22,512 nt of DNA from a virus: positions 1 through 22,512 of the IMG/VR virus record IMGVR_UViG_3300032050_000871. One strand, given 5' to 3'. The notes under the pieces were generated by a model. That model was given only the letters and a program-made list of their open reading frames with translations, did not search any database and was not told the DNA's origin. The number at the start of each line of letters is the position of its first letter. Within the stretch, counting starts at the first letter, position 1. The translations under genes and the position numbers were made by a program. Below, piece by piece: positions 13,344 through 20,185 of this stretch.

Positions 13344-13360
13344 TGCCGTATAATACGGCA
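13344..13360 (+). promoter_or_regulatory. TATAAT palindrome, copy 1
   Basis: TGCCGTATAATACGGCA is a perfect palindrome with 8-base arms around a central A. It contains TATAAT (13349-13354) reading rightward. No -35-like hexamer lies 16-18 bases upstream (CCTAAC at the 17-bp position). It is 111 bp before the start of the 213-residue gene, farther than the other gene-proximal copies. Confidence 0.75.
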
Positions 13361-13471
13361 ACACGCTTAAAAAATAATTTGCAAATAGACTTGCAATAAC
13401 CCTTAACCTATGGGAAAATTATCTTACTGGCGGAGAAACCGAGTATCTGCCAAAAAGAAAAGGATAGAAAA

Positions 13472-14113
13472 ATGACTAAAGAAAAAGCAGTTAAAGAAGC
13501 AGTAAAAATCAATAGCAACATAACAACCCAATACGCTCTTTTAATTGAGAGTGGAGAAAATGCAAACGCCGAGGCACTTAATTTTATTCTAGGCGTTGGT
13601 GATGAAATGGGAAACGGCACAACAACCCGAGAGGTAAAAGAAAGCATGAAACAGGCGTTAAACGGGGTCAATGTAAAACCCGTAGTTTTGCCAAATCATG
13701 TAGACGCCTTGCAAACCGCATGCCTAATTATCTCCCGCTTTAATGATGAAATGGGAAACATCAAAGCGAGCAAAGTGTTAAGCCTTGCAGTACGGGTAAA
13801 TGCAGATAAAAAAGCAAGTGGCGCAAAAGCGCACATAAATAGCGTAAAATCTTTTGATGAGTTAGATGAAAAAACGCTAACCAAGAAAGAAAGTCAAACC
13901 CGAGATGGCTCAACCAAAGCCAAAGCGGAGATTAAAAAATCCGCAAACGATATTACTATCGAAACCTTAACCGATAGTATTATCGCATATTTTCAGGGTA
14001 AGAATCCTAAGGACATGATTACAACCGAGCCAAAGAAAACCGAGGTTGTTATCGGTATCTTTAACTTAATCCGCAAAAACAGCGAGGTTAAATTAGAGGT
14101 AAAAGTTAAGTAA
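13472..14113 (+). CDS. Lys-rich protein of unknown function, 213 aa
   Basis: This is the first rightward gene, with an AAAAGGATAG ribosome binding site before its ATG. I recognise no family. The N-terminal 125 residues look helical and globular (ITTQYALLIESGENANAEAL, then NHVDALQTACLIISRFNDEM). A Lys/Ser/Thr-rich linker follows at about 125-165, and then a second helical domain that ends in repeated Val-Lys. No signal peptide or membrane segment is visible. The gene is monocistronic: the TATAAT palindrome copy 1 lies upstream and a clear intrinsic terminator follows within 15 bp. Its place beside the divergence region fits an early-expressed DNA-binding or host-takeover protein, but this is a guess. 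Confidence 0.75.
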   Translation: MTKEKAVKEAVKINSNITTQYALLIESGENANAEALNFILGVGDEMGNGTTTREVKESMKQALNGVNVKPVVLPNHVDALQTACLIISRFNDEMGNIKASKVLSLAVRVNADKKASGAKAHINSVKSFDELDEKTLTKKESQTRDGSTKAKAEIKKSANDITIETLTDSIIAYFQGKNPKDMITTEPKKTEVVIGIFNLIRKNSEVKLEVKVK

Positions 14114-14127
14114 GAAAAGAAAAGTAG

Positions 14128-14159
14128 CCTCACCCCTTAGGGGGTGGGGTTATTTTTTT
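14128..14159 (+). terminator. Rho-independent terminator after the 213-aa gene
   Basis: CCTCACCCC (14128-14136) pairs with GGGGTGGGG (14141-14149) around a TTAG loop. The stem is nine pairs including one U-G. It is followed by TTATTTTTTT. This is the clearest intrinsic terminator in the window and it isolates the 213-residue gene from the next rightward unit. Confidence 0.9.
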
Positions 14160-14176
14160 GCCCAAAAATTTTTCCA

Positions 14177-14300
14177 ACACAAACCCAACACAAACTAAAT
14201 TGTACTAGGCGGTACGGGAACTGCGCTGAACTAGACCAAACTTTTACGCCTATCTGTGAAAAAAATCCGACACAAACTAAACTAGATGGTACTGGTACGG
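14177..14300 (+). repeat. Imperfect direct repeats upstream of the strong promoter
   Basis: ACACAAAC occurs at 14177, 14188 and 14270. The second and third copies extend to ACACAAACTAAA and are each followed by GGTACGG, at 14211 and 14294. The spacing between the extended units is about 82 bp. The block lies 60-180 bp upstream of the promoter at 14357. Activator or repressor binding sites, or a decayed duplication, are the simplest readings. Confidence 0.5.
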
Positions 14301-14325
14301 CTCGCAACGGGTACGATTTAAGCCT

Positions 14326-14342
14326 TGCCGTATAATACGGCA
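14326..14342 (+). promoter_or_regulatory. TATAAT palindrome, copy 2
   Basis: A perfect copy of TGCCGTATAATACGGCA. It ends 14 bp before the TTGACA of the sigma-70-type promoter, so a protein bound here could touch RNA polymerase at that promoter. No -35 box of its own is visible upstream. Confidence 0.75.
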
Positions 14343-14356
14343 CGATTATTTTAGGC

Positions 14357-14385
14357 TTGACAGGGGTGCAGTTTTTCAGTATACT
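14357..14385 (+). promoter_or_regulatory. Strong sigma-70-type promoter
   Basis: A perfect TTGACA (14357-14362) and TATACT (14380-14385) are separated by 17 bp. Transcription would start near 14392 and run into the 48-residue gene at 14458. The predicted leader contains palindrome copy 3. This is the only promoter in the window with both hexamers near consensus, so it is probably read by the unmodified host polymerase soon after infection. Confidence 0.85.
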
Positions 14386-14416
14386 TATGCCAACGGGAAA
14401 GAAGTACCGCTAACCT

Positions 14417-14433
14417 TGCCGTATAGTACGGCA
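14417..14433 (+). promoter_or_regulatory. TATAAT palindrome, copy 3 (TATAGT variant)
   Basis: TGCCGTATAGTACGGCA has one mismatch in the right arm, which changes TATAAT to TATAGT. It lies about 25 nt inside the predicted transcript of the 14357 promoter and 24 nt before the ATG at 14458. It could be a roadblock operator, a second start site or an RNA hairpin. Confidence 0.7.
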
Positions 14434-14457
14434 GGTTAAATACCGAAAGGCAACAGC

Positions 14458-14604
14458 ATGGAAGCAACAGCAAGCAATACCCTACTCGCTCTCCTTGAGC
14501 GTGTTGAGGTAGTAAAAAATATCGAAGCCGAAGCGCAACGCAAAGCCAAGATACAAGAGCAAATCGCTAGGGCTATGGATAGGACTTCTCGTGAGTGGAG
14601 ATGA
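14458..14604 (+). CDS. Small helical protein, 48 aa, unknown function
   Basis: The ATG is preceded by GAAAGG at suitable distance and lies downstream of the strong promoter. The product begins MEATASNTLLALLERVEVVK and is predicted to be one long amphipathic helix rich in Glu, Ala, Lys and Arg. No family is recognised. Its final 14 bases overlap the GTG start of the next gene, which suggests coupled translation. It is the first gene behind the best promoter in the window, so early high expression is likely. Confidence 0.65.
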   Translation: MEATASNTLLALLERVEVVKNIEAEAQRKAKIQEQIARAMDRTSREWR

Positions 14605-14734
14605 TGTAGCACTAGATTTTATGACCGAGCAAGAGATAGCCGAGATTATGGCAACCGAGGATATTTTCCAAGTAGACATGTCCAACATTGATGACTTACT
14701 TGAGGATGTTGCTACGGACTCGGACTACGAATAG
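14591..14734 (+). CDS. Small acidic protein, 47 aa, unknown function
   Basis: A GTG start lies 14 nt inside the preceding gene. The product starts MSGDDVALDFMTEQEIAEIM and ends with a run of acidic residues (ATDSDYE). It has about 15 Asp/Glu and almost no basic residues. Very acidic small phage proteins sometimes mimic DNA or bind basic host factors, but that is only a possibility here. No separate ribosome binding site is obvious, so translation probably depends on coupling. Confidence 0.6.
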   Translation: MSGDDVALDFMTEQEIAEIMATEDIFQVDMSNIDDLLEDVATDSDYE

Positions 14735-14744
14735 CAACTGGATA

Positions 14745-14790
14745 GCCCACGCTAGACGGCATAATCATGGGTGCAATTCCCATGGTGGGC
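14745..14790 (+). other. Stacked hairpin with a tRNA T-arm-like loop
   Basis: GCCCAC (14745-14750) pairs with GTGGGC (14785-14790). Immediately inside the 3' strand lies a perfect hairpin, CATGGG / TGCAATT / CCCATG (14766-14784). The two stems could stack end to end like the acceptor and T arms of a tRNA. The seven-base loop matches the T-loop consensus except for G in place of the second T. There is no room for D and anticodon arms (only 15 bases), so it is not a functional tRNA. A processing signal, a mimic or a tRNA remnant are all possible. Confidence 0.5.
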
Positions 14791-14795
14791 ACGCA

Positions 14796-14812
14796 TGCCG
14801 TATAATACGGCA
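14796..14812 (+). promoter_or_regulatory. TATAAT palindrome, copy 4
   Basis: A perfect copy of TGCCGTATAATACGGCA, starting 5 bp after the stacked hairpin. It ends 17 nt before the ATG at 14830, with AAGGAG in between. If TATAAT is a -10 element, transcription would begin at about the last base of the palindrome and give a leader of about 17 nt. The hexamer at the expected -35 position is TCCCAT, which is not a match. Confidence 0.75.
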
Positions 14813-14829
14813 AGCACTAAGGAGATAGC

Positions 14830-14961
14830 ATGTACATAGAGATAACAGATACAATAGCAATCATAATTGCGCTGACTACTAGCACCACGCTGGTAATTAC
14901 TACCGCAATTAGAAACGCTAAACTTACTCGTGCTTTGCGTGAGTTAAGTGTCCAAAAGTAA
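14830..14961 (+). CDS. Single-span small membrane protein, 43 aa
   Basis: The ATG follows AAGGAG at good spacing, directly behind palindrome copy 4. Residues 7-27 (DTIAIIIALTTSTTLVITTA) form a likely transmembrane helix. A short basic tail (RNAKLTRALRE) should stay in the cytoplasm. No family can be assigned to so small a protein. Holin-like, antiholin or superinfection-exclusion roles are possible but not shown. It overlaps the next gene by 14 nt. Confidence 0.65.
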   Translation: MYIEITDTIAIIIALTTSTTLVITTAIRNAKLTRALRELSVQK

Positions 14962-15169
14962 TGTAGACTATGCCAATGAGATTATCCTGACACTTACTAG
15001 AGATGAACTAGAAACTGTCAGGGAATCTCTTAGGCAATTTTCTATACACAATACAAGGCATGGCTTCGAGGCTCGTGCTAAGTACGCTGATGACCTGCGG
15101 GATAAAATCGTGAATGTTATTCTCGATAGTGTCCAGCGCAAGGTTGACAAGGCTAAGGAATTAGTCTAA
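14948..15169 (+). CDS. Helical protein, 73 aa, unknown function
   Basis: A GTG start lies within the 3' end of the membrane-protein gene (14-nt overlap). No internal Met offers an alternative start. The product is predicted all-helical and strongly charged, with LTLTRDELETVRESLRQFS and a long C-terminal helix. No ribosome binding site is clear, so coupling to the upstream gene is likely. A partnership between the two products is plausible but unsupported by motifs. Confidence 0.6.
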   Translation: MSKSNVDYANEIILTLTRDELETVRESLRQFSIHNTRHGFEARAKYADDLRDKIVNVILDSVQRKVDKAKELV

Positions 15170-15181
15170 GATAGTACTACT

Positions 15182-15204
15182 CGGCAGTAGAGATACTATT
15201 GCCG
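15182..15204 (+). other. Hairpin competing with palindrome copy 5
   Basis: CGGCAGTAG pairs with CTATTGCCG around an AGATA loop (nine pairs, one G-U). Its 3' arm ends in TGCCG, which is also the left arm of palindrome copy 5. The two hairpins therefore cannot form at once in RNA, which is the geometry of a simple RNA switch or attenuator. No T-run follows. Confidence 0.45.
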
Positions 15205-15216
15205 TATAATACAGCA
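15200..15216 (+). promoter_or_regulatory. TATAAT palindrome, copy 5
   Basis: TGCCGTATAATACAGCA has one arm mismatch (A for G). The TATAAT is intact at 15205-15210. The element ends 13 nt before the ATG of the amidoligase gene, with AAGGA in between. No -35-like hexamer is seen upstream (CGGCAG at 17-bp spacing). Confidence 0.7.
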
Positions 15217-15229
15217 AGAAGGATAGCAT

Positions 15230-16456
15230 ATGGAAACTGTTGACGAGGTCGAGATAAAGTACAAATGTACTGTCTGCGACAGCGAGTTAGACAGTAGTAC
15301 TGTTGTCGAAACTGATAGCGGTAAGCCTGTCTGCGAAAACTGCTCTGTAATATGTATGCGGTGTGATGGTGTCGGTCATATAAACGACACTTACTCAAGC
15401 GTAGGAGGCAGTAGGTGGTGTGAAAATTGTACAGATTATTACGCCTCATACTGTGAACTATGTGAAGAGTATTTTACGGGACACCGATATGGTGCAGAGG
15501 ATACTGGTATGACATTTTGCGAATCATGTTTTGAAAGCGAAGTGTCTTACTGTGAAGAGTGCGATAATTATTACTATGAAGGTTGTGGTTATTCGCATGA
15601 AGACGAGGAAGATTCTAGATTGATACACGATTACTCGTACCGACCTGACCCTATCTTCCGTAGTTCCGAGGATGAAAATACTAGGCTTTACTTTGGTATC
15701 GAGGTTGAGACCGAGGTGCGAGGTGGTAGTTATGAAGCCCGCAAAATAGCAGCCGAGTTTGCATATCTGTTAGAGAATGAAAATCTAGCCTATCTAAAAT
15801 CTGACGGCTCACTTGAGTGCGGGTTTGAGATAGTATCTCATCCAATGACTCATAGTTATTTCATGAATGATGCAAGTGTGTTATGGGAAACTATCAATAC
15901 ACTTAAATCTAACTATGACATGATGGCATGGGGTACAAAAACCTGTGGACTACATGTGCATATATCTCGTGCTGGATTTAGTGGCGGTTCACACCAGCAT
16001 AGATTCCTGCAATTAGTCTACAATAACAAGGACTTCTACGAGGTACTTGCTGGTAGGTCATCTAGTCATTGGGCTAAGTTTGATGACAATGTTGACCCTA
16101 ATACTGGCAGGAAATCCTTTAAGCATAAATTTGACCGACATGGTAGCGATAGATACTCTGCGGTCAATACCAACAACAGAAATACTTTAGAGATGAGAAT
16201 CTTTAGAGGTAGTGTAAATCCGAGATTCATTAAGTCTGCTATTGATTTGGCGCATGCCAGCGTTGAGTTCACTAGGGTAATGAGTGTCAAAGAAGTTAGA
16301 GAAGGTGGACTATCCTGTCTAAACTTTAGGCAGTACATAGAGAGTAAGTCTGAGTTATATCCATCCCTCAATGCAAGAATACAAATACATAAAGATGTAT
16401 TAACTAGGATAGAAAGGAAAGAGCATGTGTCTACTAGTAGTAAGTTCACCGAATAG
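15230..16456 (+). CDS. Amidoligase-family enzyme with N-terminal zinc-ribbon array
   Basis: This 408-residue protein has two parts. Residues 13-119 hold seven CxxC pairs (13/16, 35/38, 42/45, 64/67, 75/78, 97/100, 108/111), which should fold as several zinc ribbons or treble clefs. Residues 150-400 resemble the glutamine-synthetase-like amidoligase family. FGIEVETE (155-162) holds the acidic metal-binding residues, then come SDGSLECGFEIVSHP (191-205), CGLHVHIS (239-246) and a late NTLEMRIFRGS. Such enzymes join an amine to a carboxyl group using ATP. The next gene encodes a class II glutamine amidotransferase, overlapping by 32 nt, a pairing known for this family. The substrate is not evident; peptide tagging or cell-wall change are candidates. 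The start follows AAGGA behind palindrome copy 5. Confidence 0.85.
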   Translation: METVDEVEIKYKCTVCDSELDSSTVVETDSGKPVCENCSVICMRCDGVGHINDTYSSVGGSRWCENCTDYYASYCELCEEYFTGHRYGAEDTGMTFCESCFESEVSYCEECDNYYYEGCGYSHEDEEDSRLIHDYSYRPDPIFRSSEDENTRLYFGIEVETEVRGGSYEARKIAAEFAYLLENENLAYLKSDGSLECGFEIVSHPMTHSYFMNDASVLWETINTLKSNYDMMAWGTKTCGLHVHISRAGFSGGSHQHRFLQLVYNNKDFYEVLAGRSSSHWAKFDDNVDPNTGRKSFKHKFDRHGSDRYSAVNTNNRNTLEMRIFRGSVNPRFIKSAIDLAHASVEFTRVMSVKEVREGGLSCLNFRQYIESKSELYPSLNARIQIHKDVLTRIERKEHVSTSSKFTE

Positions 16457-17240
16457 CACACCACGCAAGAAGGATTTAGACAATGCTTCTTGTAATAATC
16501 CGCATGGCTTTGGCTACGCTGTAATTGCTGGTAATAAAATTATTACTGGCAAGGGCATGAACTCTAAAAAAGTTATCAAAGAGTTCCTAGAAGTACGCAA
16601 GCAATACCCAAATAGTTATGCTATGTATCATGCTAGATTTGCTACGCATGGTGTTAAGAATGATGAGAATTGTCATCCATTCAAGGTAGGTGGTAGCGAC
16701 CTGACATACTTAGCACACAATGGCATACTAGATGTGCATATCGAACCTGCTGACAAGCGTAGTGATACTCGCATATTTGCCGAGGATATACTGCCGTCAA
16801 TGGGTGGTATCACAGCATTGGATAACCCTAATCTATACGGCATGATAGAGAAGTGGTCTGTCGGTAGTAAGATTGCGGTATTTACCTTAGACCCTAATGC
16901 CGAGTATGACTGCTACATTATCAACGAGGACGCAGGTCATTGGGATAATGACGGCAATTGGTGGTCTAATGATTCATATAAGAGCGACAATGGTTGGGGT
17001 AAGTACTTCCAGCAATATGATTACGAGGCTGCTGATGATGCCGAGTTTGCTTGTATGATGTGCGGTATAGAAGTACTCGAAGACGGCAATATGTACTATT
17101 GTGAAAACTGTGGTTCATGCTTTGATTGCAGTATGATAGTAAATGATAGTTGCCTGTGCTGGTCTCCCGAGAGGGATGCATCAGCCCGACACAAACAAAT
17201 AATGGGGGCATATAATGGACAGTATGACTTTGGCTTCTAG
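16425..17240 (+). CDS. Class II glutamine amidotransferase-like protein with C-terminal zinc ribbon
   Basis: The 271-residue product has the hallmarks of a class II (Ntn) glutamine amidotransferase. Cys2 is exposed as the nucleophile after Met removal. NPHGFGYA lies at 25-32, HARFATHG at 69-76, NCHPF at 82-86 and AHNGIL at 97-102. The family hydrolyses glutamine to release ammonia, or acts on related gamma-glutamyl bonds. The need for Cys right after Met fixes the start at 16425, which has its own AAAGGAAAG site inside the amidoligase gene. The C-terminus (210-245) carries CxxC pairs at 210/213, 226/229 and 232/235 and a final CLC. The YCENCGSCFDC segment resembles VCENCSVICMRC in the partner. 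The two proteins probably form a complex in the cytoplasm. Confidence 0.85.
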   Translation: MCLLVVSSPNSTPRKKDLDNASCNNPHGFGYAVIAGNKIITGKGMNSKKVIKEFLEVRKQYPNSYAMYHARFATHGVKNDENCHPFKVGGSDLTYLAHNGILDVHIEPADKRSDTRIFAEDILPSMGGITALDNPNLYGMIEKWSVGSKIAVFTLDPNAEYDCYIINEDAGHWDNDGNWWSNDSYKSDNGWGKYFQQYDYEAADDAEFACMMCGIEVLEDGNMYYCENCGSCFDCSMIVNDSCLCWSPERDASARHKQIMGAYNGQYDFGF

Positions 17241-17358
17241 GGAAGAAGTCAGAAAAGTAATCATAGAGTTAATCTCTATCGCCAATTTGACTGACGAGAG
17301 AGATGACGCTATAATTGCTAATGCAAGACTACTGCTACAAAAACTATATGCCGTATAA
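17215..17358 (+). CDS. Small helical protein, 47 aa, unknown function
   Basis: The ATG lies 26 nt inside the end of the amidotransferase gene, with a GGGGG run 6 nt upstream. A second Met at codon 4 (17224) is an alternative start. The product is helical (REEVRKVIIELISIANLTDE, then a Leu-rich helix). Its TAA stop is formed inside palindrome copy 6, so the regulatory element and the gene end share bases. No family is recognised. Confidence 0.55.
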   Translation: MDSMTLASREEVRKVIIELISIANLTDERDDAIIANARLLLQKLYAV

Positions 17359-17365
17359 TACGGCA
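17349..17365 (+). promoter_or_regulatory. TATAAT palindrome, copy 6
   Basis: A perfect copy of TGCCGTATAATACGGCA that overlaps the stop codon of the preceding 47-residue gene. It ends 13 nt before the ATG at 17379, with AAAAGGATAG between. The hexamer at the expected -35 position is ACTGCT, which is no match. The same spacing to the start codon is seen at copy 5. Confidence 0.75.
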
Positions 17366-17378
17366 GAAAAGGATAGAG

Positions 17379-17606
17379 ATGAAACTAAAAGTACACCATC
17401 CAAGCGGTGATGTAATAGCAGATGTATATGATTATGCTGCTGGCGCATTACTGATGAGTCTATATGGAGAAGGTTCACATATATCGTACAAGGGTAAAGC
17501 AATATGGCGTGAAGGCATAGATGGTGAAGGTGCCGAAAGTTATGATACAACAAGCATGGTAATGGATAGCCGACTAATAGAAATGGGAGTAAATGTTGAC
17601 GAATGA
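17379..17606 (+). CDS. Small protein, 75 aa, unknown function
   Basis: The start is supported by AAAGGATAG directly behind palindrome copy 6. The product starts MKLKVHHPSGDVIADVYDYA. It looks like a compact alpha/beta protein with Gly-rich turns (YGEGSHISYKGKAIWREGID). No Cys pairs, signal peptide or known motif are seen. It overlaps the next gene by 14 nt. This is the first gene of a run of coupled small genes that reaches the WhiB gene. Confidence 0.65.
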   Translation: MKLKVHHPSGDVIADVYDYAAGALLMSLYGEGSHISYKGKAIWREGIDGEGAESYDTTSMVMDSRLIEMGVNVDE

Positions 17607-17838
17607 GGTATCGGTACAAGAAATAATAAGCAAGTATATGATATCATGTACTGGCATCACATCTACTGGTTGGACTAAGCATGTGATACTAAATGATAAT
17701 ACAAATCAGTACTCGGGTAGATTGCATTGGGATTCCAATGACGGATATTCTATGGCATGGGATACCAAACCTGCGCCCGAATCAGATAGACCTGAGTTCG
17801 AGTATGTACTAGACTGCATAACAGAGGGAGATAGATAA
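17593..17838 (+). CDS. Small protein, 81 aa, unknown function
   Basis: The ATG lies 14 nt before the end of the upstream gene, following GGGAG. The product looks like a small beta-rich domain (WTKHVILNDNTNQYSGRLHW, then Trp and Tyr residues) with an acidic C-terminus. No family is recognised. Its TAA stop shares one base with the ATG of the next gene (TAATG). Confidence 0.6.
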   Translation: MLTNEVSVQEIISKYMISCTGITSTGWTKHVILNDNTNQYSGRLHWDSNDGYSMAWDTKPAPESDRPEFEYVLDCITEGDR

Positions 17839-17975: not shown

Positions 17976-18084
17976 GCCAATGTACTTGCAGGGTGATGAC
18001 TATGCCTTAAACGGGACAGAAGATGATATAGATGAGGATGATACTGGGCTACCTGACCGCATGTGGGAGGATGAGGATGCTTAA
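17968..18084 (+). CDS. Very acidic micro-protein, 38 aa
   Basis: The ATG has GGGAAG upstream and overlaps the preceding gene by 8 nt. The product contains EDDIDEDD and ends WEDEDA, with 14 Asp/Glu and only one basic residue. The same DNA is also open in another frame that extends the WhiB gene upstream. The ribosome binding site and the 8-nt overlaps on both sides favour this frame instead. It could be a DNA mimic or a regulator of the WhiB protein that follows, but there is no direct evidence. Confidence 0.5.
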   Translation: MSEPMYLQGDDYALNGTEDDIDEDDTGLPDRMWEDEDA

Positions 18085-18430
18085 CGGCAACTGTACTGGC
18101 GACGATAATCCTGACTGGTGGTTTCCTGAGATTCCAACGGGCAGAACTGAGCCTGAAAAGATTAAAAGAGTTGCGTCTCAGATAAACTATGCGCTACAAT
18201 TATGTGCTACCTGTCCTGTCAAAGGTGAATGTTTGGCGGAGGGTATGAAGATGGAGAAAATGCCGTCAGGTAAAACTGGCTGGGGTAATCTACCATTTGG
18301 AATATGGGGTGGAACAATGGCTGCTGAGAGATTAGCATCTGTGGGCATAAAACCTGGAACCTCTAGAAGTAGTGCTTCCTATCAAGCATACAAATTATAC
18401 AGTCTAACTAAGGACCTAATAAGGCGGTGA
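18077..18430 (+). CDS. WhiB-family transcriptional regulator
   Basis: The four iron-sulfur cysteines of the family are all present. Numbered from the chosen start they are Cys6, Cys43, Cys46 and Cys52, in the pattern C...CxxCxxxxxC. The typical acidic DDNPDWWFPE segment follows the first Cys. The turn motif PFGIWGG (73-79) and a basic C-terminal tail for DNA contact follow. WhiB proteins are restricted to actinobacteria and their phages and usually act by binding region 4 of the main sigma factor. I choose the ATG at 18077 because GGGAGG lies 6 bases upstream; the longer frame from 18032 would add an atypical leader. The product may regulate the phage's own rightward promoters or shut down host genes. 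Confidence 0.92.
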   Translation: MLNGNCTGDDNPDWWFPEIPTGRTEPEKIKRVASQINYALQLCATCPVKGECLAEGMKMEKMPSGKTGWGNLPFGIWGGTMAAERLASVGIKPGTSRSSASYQAYKLYSLTKDLIRR

Positions 18431-19453: not shown

Positions 19454-20185
19454 TTATTCATCGGACCTATCCTCGTTCCTATCATCGGGTTGTTCATGTG
19501 GTACTTCGGCCTCGAGATTATCGCTAATATCGTTTTCTTTTTTATCAAAATCTTTATCTAACCAAGGTCGGAATCCACCGATTCTAGTGATAAGTTTTTT
19601 GACTGCACGATTATGGCGCATACGAGCAGCATCTTCACTACCTAAATTCATCTCGGTAGCGATATCGCCATAGTCCATAGATTCAGCGTACCTGTAAAAC
19701 AGTACTGTCCTATCCTCGGTACTGAGTTTGCGGTACGCTTTATCTATTTCAATCATCATAACCATCATGTTGCCGCCTTCAGCGGGAGCAGGTGGCTTAC
19801 TTGGACCAACTAAATTTAACTTATGCGATACACCAAACTCACCTCGTAAGACTGAAGGTAAAAGTGCTTCAATTATATCTGCTTCATAAAAGAATGCATC
19901 TGAAGTTTCATAGCCAATAGACTTGGCCTTCCATTCTAAACAATAATCCAATGCATCATTACGTAGGCAACGATAGATTAAATTCTTAGCATCTTTTTCA
20001 CCTATTGCTTCCCATTCATTTAACTTATTGGGATGCTCAAGAAACCATTTGTACAATGATTGTTTAATGTCTTCGAGTTCAACCATATCATATTTTCTAT
20101 GGTATTCAGAGGCAACGGCAACTACAATGTAGTCCCATTTTTCTATGCGCTTCCATTCTAAATGTGTATTGTCTACCATTTCCAA
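19454..20185 (-). CDS. Sigma-factor-like protein
   Basis: The 243-residue protein has a C-terminal helix-turn-helix that resembles sigma region 4: YRKLSTEDRTVLFYRYAESM (151-170), then DYGDIATEMNLGSEDAARMR and HNRAVKKL (to about 198). The N-terminal half (30-95) is helical with a weaker similarity to region 2. The last 35 residues are very acidic. Phages use such proteins to redirect host RNA polymerase. The TATAAT palindromes are a candidate target, though that is inference. The start is uncertain: a TTG at 20185 has GGAAGG 6 nt upstream, while an ATG at 20179 is better as a codon but too far from that site. The gene overlaps the metallophosphoesterase gene by 13 nt. Confidence 0.75.
   Translation of the reverse strand: MEMVDNTHLEWKRIEKWDYIVVAVASEYHRKYDMVELEDIKQSLYKWFLEHPNKLNEWEAIGEKDAKNLIYRCLRNDALDYCLEWKAKSIGYETSDAFFYEADIIEALLPSVLRGEFGVSHKLNLVGPSKPPAPAEGGNMMVMMIEIDKAYRKLSTEDRTVLFYRYAESMDYGDIATEMNLGSEDAARMRHNRAVKKLITRIGGFRPWLDKDFDKKENDISDNLEAEVPHEQPDDRNEDRSDE

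Follow-up and report, generated by a model that had tools for sequence, protein, structure and literature searches.

Six copies of a 17-bp palindrome, TGCCGTA-TAA-TACGGCA, lie along a rightward operon in a 22.5-kb virus fragment akin to phages of freshwater Actinobacteria (IMG/VR record IMGVR_UViG_3300032050_000871, positions 1 to 22,512; this whole stretch is called the window here), which raises the question of what reads these sites and to what effect. An earlier note took the TATAAT within them for a −10 promoter element that needs a phage sigma factor or a WhiB protein, with a dimeric regulator bound on the palindrome of a rightward phage regulon, and offered an RNA hairpin in the 5′ leader as an alternative. 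From comparison with related phages we infer that the palindromes are very probably sites for g213, a 213-residue orphan protein encoded beside them, rather than promoters. A g213 dimer probably binds them as DNA operators and so controls the rightward early operon, most likely by silencing it—an answer that retains the dimer and the regulon of the earlier note and abandons its promoters and its hairpin.

Palindromic sites in the window

All six sites are on the plus strand, at the positions previously listed and with the same division into four exact copies and two with one mismatch (14417 and 15200). No further match was found in the window at up to three mismatches, and shuffled sequence yielded 0.04 matches on average. 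P1 (13344–13360) lies upstream of the g213 gene (13472–14113, plus strand) and its presumed promoter, and P2 (14326–14342) ends 14 bp short of the −35 box of the operon promoter. P3 (14417–14433, a TATAGT variant) lies in a 5′ leader, 24 nt before the ATG at 14458; P4 (14796–14812) ends 17 nt before an ATG, P5 (15200–15216, with the right-arm variant TACAGCA, GG>AG) 13 nt before an amidoligase-like gene and P6 (17349–17365) 13 nt before an open reading frame (ORF) of 75 residues. That four copies end 13–24 nt before a start codon is thus confirmed, as is the central A on the plus strand in all six; the broader claim, that the palindrome occurs only in front of rightward genes, fails at P2, which follows a terminator and precedes a promoter.

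Palindrome types across related phages

The window’s terminase shares 75% identity with its counterpart in E7, a phage isolated on ‘Ca. Planktophila’ (PMC10202952), and 44–45% with those of Streptomyces phages; phage E7 lacks the palindrome, g213, the amidoligase and the glutamine-amidotransferase-like (GATase) gene. About 18 IMG/VR contigs, most of them with several copies, contain the 17-mer within a shared gene neighbourhood, and single matches elsewhere are at chance level. A host motif was considered and rejected: 84,980 bacterial and archaeal genomes gave single matches only, in about the number expected by chance, and none of the genomes with such a match was actinobacterial by title. 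Our key comparison sample consisted of 80 loci coding for relatives of the GATase-like gene, and relatives of this class-II amidotransferase-like gene were confirmed in 198 virus stretches.

The idea that the 17-mer always precedes the same gene families holds for the positions of the sites, which are kept in relatives, but not for the 17-mer itself, which in most of them is replaced by another palindrome. About 20 different palindromes, built as 7-N2-4-7 and mostly without TATAAT, fill these positions. Half-sites around a 3-bp spacer include TGTATTA, TGTCTGA, TGTCATA, TGCTGTA, CACTATA, CACTTTA, TGTATGA, TGTCCGA and TGTACGA; those around a 4-bp spacer include TGTCGGG, TGTTCGG, TATCCGT and TGTTCGT; TGTCGGC has a 2-bp spacer, and further, rarer types exist. 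Each phage has a single type, common to all its sites, and in whole records these sites fall within a single stretch of roughly 4–6 kb. Over 3.3 kb (14498–17825) the relative L144 matches the window at 87% identity, yet every one of its palindromes is of the CACTATA type; the same switch is seen when the P5 and P6 regions of L148 and L154 are aligned. Since the positions are the same and the palindromes are switched, TATAAT is incidental; we rejected it as a conserved −10 element because TGTCTGA-, TGTATGA-, TGTTCGG- and other palindromes stand at equivalent positions (for example, TGTCTGA-N3-TCAGACA and TGTTCGG-N4-CCGAACA).

Co-variation of palindromes with g213

Homologues of g213 are encoded at the equivalent place in nearly all phages in which that region is present; a profile built only from window-type g213 found 48 of 66, the remainder being linked via intermediates. 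All ten contigs found in a scan with g213 alone carry both g213 and the window palindrome. Wider scans found at least three repeated palindromes at 60 of 83 g213 loci, and the expected core in 20 of the remaining 23; most of the loci that appeared to have no repeats either retain that core, its outer bases being degenerate, or are truncated.

In a set of 56 phages, the more two g213 proteins differ, the more their palindromes do (rho 0.63–0.67), and the correlation persists when each of ten other genes is controlled for (partial 0.59–0.67). The ten genes, sigma and WhiB included, reach at most 0.22 once g213 is controlled for; in direct comparison the partial values are 0.62–0.65 for g213 against 0.19 for sigma and 0.04 for WhiB, and we rejected both of the latter as cognate factors because palindrome type does not track them. 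Nor does it track terminase or GATase. Linkage alone is an insufficient explanation, because the sites beside the amidoligase and GATase genes follow g213 and those genes do not. The protein and the palindrome look like a co-evolving regulatory lock-and-key pair.

The co-variation suggests that g213 reads its half-site partly through R53, which would see the G at position 2, and residue 78, which would see base 4. Residue 78, adjoining the nearly invariant H76 in a helix spanning 74–89, predicts base 4 in 53 of 56 proteins (D or E with C, Q or H with A, and P, S or A with T), and R53 accompanies a strict G at position 2 but is mostly missing from proteins whose sites are degenerate there. Both pairings match commonly seen contacts, namely Glu or Asp with C, Gln with A and Arg with G. 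Among 31 held-out proteins from scans with other g213 subgroups, 26 obey the residue-78 rule, including some that are at most 39–49% identical to any training protein. Phylogenetically independent pairs never contradict the rule, and are too few for significance. The half-site TGCCGTA goes with two distant g213 clades, one with D78 and one with E78. A structural model of g213 from 32 diverse sequences, which also counts in favour of the proposal, is of high confidence and all helical (pLDDT 88.2; an earlier model from 11 close sequences was mediocre, at 72).

Promoter bracket and polarity of the sites

Between P2 and P3, which are 91 bp apart and stand one on each side, lies a near-consensus sigma-70 promoter for the rightward operon (11 of 12 positions; plus strand, 14357–14385), with TTGACA at 14357–14362, a 17-bp spacer and TATACT at 14380–14385. 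This arrangement recurs in nearly all types: in 16 of them the operon promoter is bracketed by two sites 89–114 bp apart. The distance from the upstream site to the −35 box is mostly specific to the type (14, 15, 19, 21, 17 or 4 bp), and the downstream site begins at least 29 bp after the −10 box, so that neither touches the core promoter.

We propose that each operator would comprise a pair of 7-bp half-sites in inverted orientation, separated by 3 A/T-rich base pairs, and would be occupied by a dimer of g213, whose gene immediately follows P1. From P2 and P3, and from the further intergenic sites, g213 would control the rightward early operon, and it would probably control its own gene via P1. 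Silencing could combine a block or loop at the promoter with roadblocks along the operon, by analogy with the stoperators of L5 or the way in which GalR brackets the gal operon; we judge it likelier than activation because the sites recur between genes, as stoperators do (PMC9283540, PMC5712189).

Orientation of the centre was assessed on 513 sites from 74 loci. With 3-bp spacers the central base is never G or C, and the sense strand carries A at 343 of 398 sites and T at 55, against a background A/(A+T) of 57%. The earlier view that the central base sets orientation is therefore real and general, and the −10 hexamer does not account for it. Because the bias towards A appears both at pre-promoter sites (41:6) and in leaders (189:13), it reflects a polarity of the site along transcription that extends beyond RNA leaders; under silencing it would mark polarity relative to RNA polymerase. 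Stop codons account for the orientation at some sites, namely P6 and those at the ends of the amidoligase genes of G001, G012 and G015; as a general explanation they fail, because other types have stops in either orientation. Some operators lie within coding genes at homologous codon positions (4403 and 4720 in L035, 594 and 911 in L014); there the arms are kept while the centre flips between A and T, altering the amino acid.

Alternative explanations

Sites that serve as TATAAT −10 promoters for a phage sigma factor or WhiB now seem scarcely credible. The hexamer of the window type, its consistent orientation and the sigma-like and WhiB genes nearby invite such a reading, but most other types lack the hexamer at equivalent positions, palindrome type follows neither gene and P3 lies within the leader of a sigma-70 promoter. 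It is also very improbable, if a little less so, that the palindromes fold as hairpins in the RNA of 5′ leaders and, with a phage RNA-binding protein, act on translation or processing. Many sites do stand 10–25 nt before a Shine–Dalgarno sequence or ATG, could fold into stable 7-bp hairpins and have an A-rich centre on the sense strand. Changes in the arms are, however, symmetric, and the one-sided ones produce G-U and A-C about equally (38 and 35), with C-A outnumbering U-G at the outermost pair (96 against 63); this absence of a wobble preference favours a DNA site, and the palindromes fit a duplex-DNA site of a symmetric dimer. The position of P2 between terminator and promoter, and the orientation bias of pre-promoter sites, also speak against hairpins.

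More weight attaches to g213 as an activator, although we think this unlikely: P2 would recruit RNA polymerase to the promoter at 14357, and the downstream sites would be secondary or would aid assembly of a protein–DNA filament. Such a role would suit the type-specific, fixed distance before the −35 box and a core promoter that is never overlapped; it sits poorly with a window promoter already near consensus and with intergenic sites that have no downstream promoter to activate. About half as probable, in our estimate, is a ParB/KorB-like protein that would load at parS-like palindromes and spread or condense DNA, in segregation, replication or long-range silencing. The TG...CA palindromes are similar to parS, with a guanine at the same outer position read by ParB R173 (PMC7383237). 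The helical g213 model weakly matches, over residues 14–150, the DNA-binding domains of KorB, ParB, SopB and Spo0J (Z 2.9–4.0; KorB 1r71 4.0, ParB 6s6h 3.7, SopB 3mkz 3.7). Such low Z values are, however, common for helical models. No ParB Pfam match was found among the 32 g213 members scanned, alignment to chromosomal ParB with hhalign gave E 0.52, leaving homology unsupported, and the sites occur within one operon only, at its promoter and gene starts.

Several observations weigh against the proposed binding and silencing by g213. The place of P2 just upstream of the −35 box would suit an activator too, and no site overlaps the core promoter. There is no convincing match to g213 in Pfam, PHROG, PDB sequences or annotated phages (in the last, no tblastn relative either), and Foldseek gave no significant match in PDB or BFVD (best BFVD E 0.009, to an unnamed protein); neither a known DNA-binding family nor a significant fold match vouches for it. 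The permutation p of its partial correlation (0.0005, the floor) comes from permutations that ignore the tree, and residue 78 and base 4 have each changed only about six times over the g213 tree, too small a number for a significance test. All five held-out failures belong to the already deviant TATCCGT lineage, in which the residue-78 rule is broken. Finally, no integrase or resolvase match (PF00589 or PF00239) was found in 16 relatives of 38–41 kb, so lysogenic silencing would have no obvious use.

Neighbouring genes and signals

On the plus strand, a strong intrinsic terminator (14118–14159; −29.2 kcal/mol, with a T run) follows g213. The putatively regulated operon includes the amidoligase-like gene (15230–16456) and the class-II GATase-like gene (16425–17240), which overlap as a pair (15230–17240). 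A 47-residue ORF (17215–17358, plus strand), 94–98% conserved in seven relatives, has its TAA stop inside P6, at the centre of the site, and amidoligase genes of other relatives likewise terminate within a palindrome. The rejected candidates for cognate factor are a WhiB-like gene (18032–18430, plus strand) and a sigma-factor-like gene (19454–20185, minus strand). Just upstream of P4, at 14745–14792, a hairpin resembles half a tRNA, with acceptor- and T-arm-like parts; relatives have the T-arm-like GGTTCGAGTCC at this position, and ARAGORN found no tRNA in the window. The AT-rich intergenic stretch between terminase and P1 (12848–13046), which contains small inverted repeats and is 89% conserved in L144, is possibly an origin or a leftward promoter region.

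Comparison with known systems

We suggest only tentatively that g213 is the founding member of a novel family of DNA-binding phage regulators whose recognition code can be read in part, that integrase-less freshwater actinophages deploy it with dispersed operators for stoperator-like control outside lysogeny and that rapid diversification into roughly 20 specificity types decides which co-infecting phages silence each other’s early genes; operator types may define superinfection exclusion groups. An orphan phage protein family would here be tied to its binding sites purely by co-evolution, through a proposed amino-acid-to-base code that is open to testing. The apparent hosts of these phages, inferred from isolated relatives, belong to one of the most abundant groups of freshwater bacteria, for which regulation is almost unknown.

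Among known systems, ParB/Noc with parS/NBS and KorB with OB also have palindromes with outer TG/TA and a specificity switched by few residues, and KorB is a global repressor with dispersed sites (PMC7383237, PMC11790492); g213 differs in having no sequence homology found and only weak fold similarity. The SAS/ESAS repeats of Cluster K likewise lie shortly before the start codons of non-structural genes, with an inverted-repeat consensus that differs between subclusters, but SAS, an asymmetric motif of 13 bp, lies at the ribosome-binding site and ESAS consists of two imperfect 17-bp repeats with variable spacers (PMC3203893). We found no SAS-like 13-bp motif between palindrome and start codon, only variable Shine–Dalgarno-like sequence. 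Cluster A stoperators, bound by the L5 repressor, resemble our sites in their many oriented copies near gene starts and in a consensus that varies between related phages (PMC9283540, PMC5712189), and multiple oriented sites between operon genes are found here too. Stoperators, however, belong to temperate phages, are asymmetric and 13 bp long, and bind their repressor as a monomer (PMC9283540, PMC5712189), whereas here the sites are palindromes of 17–18 bp, no integrase was found and the protein is unrelated to the L5 repressor.

The closest resemblance in form is to Corndog, of the Cluster O mycobacteriophages, whose 17-bp repeat TGTTCGG-N3-CCGAACA has no known function (PMC4351075). Both sets share the length, a 7-3-7 inverted repeat with an A/T-rich centre, many identical copies, some of them in genes, and the lack of an integrase (PMC4351075). 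Corndog’s sites are spread genome-wide, show little orientation and for the most part do not lie near promoters (PMC4351075), whereas those of the freshwater phages are oriented, lie in one operon, bracket its promoter and co-vary with a neighbouring gene. Seven freshwater phages (L188, L194, L201, L207, L208, L211 and L220) have the half-site TGTTCGG around a 4-bp spacer, the same half-site that Corndog has around 3 bp. The TGTTCGG-type freshwater phages and Corndog possibly share a regulator family, and the g213 system suggests what palindrome arrays without an assigned role, Corndog’s among them, might do.

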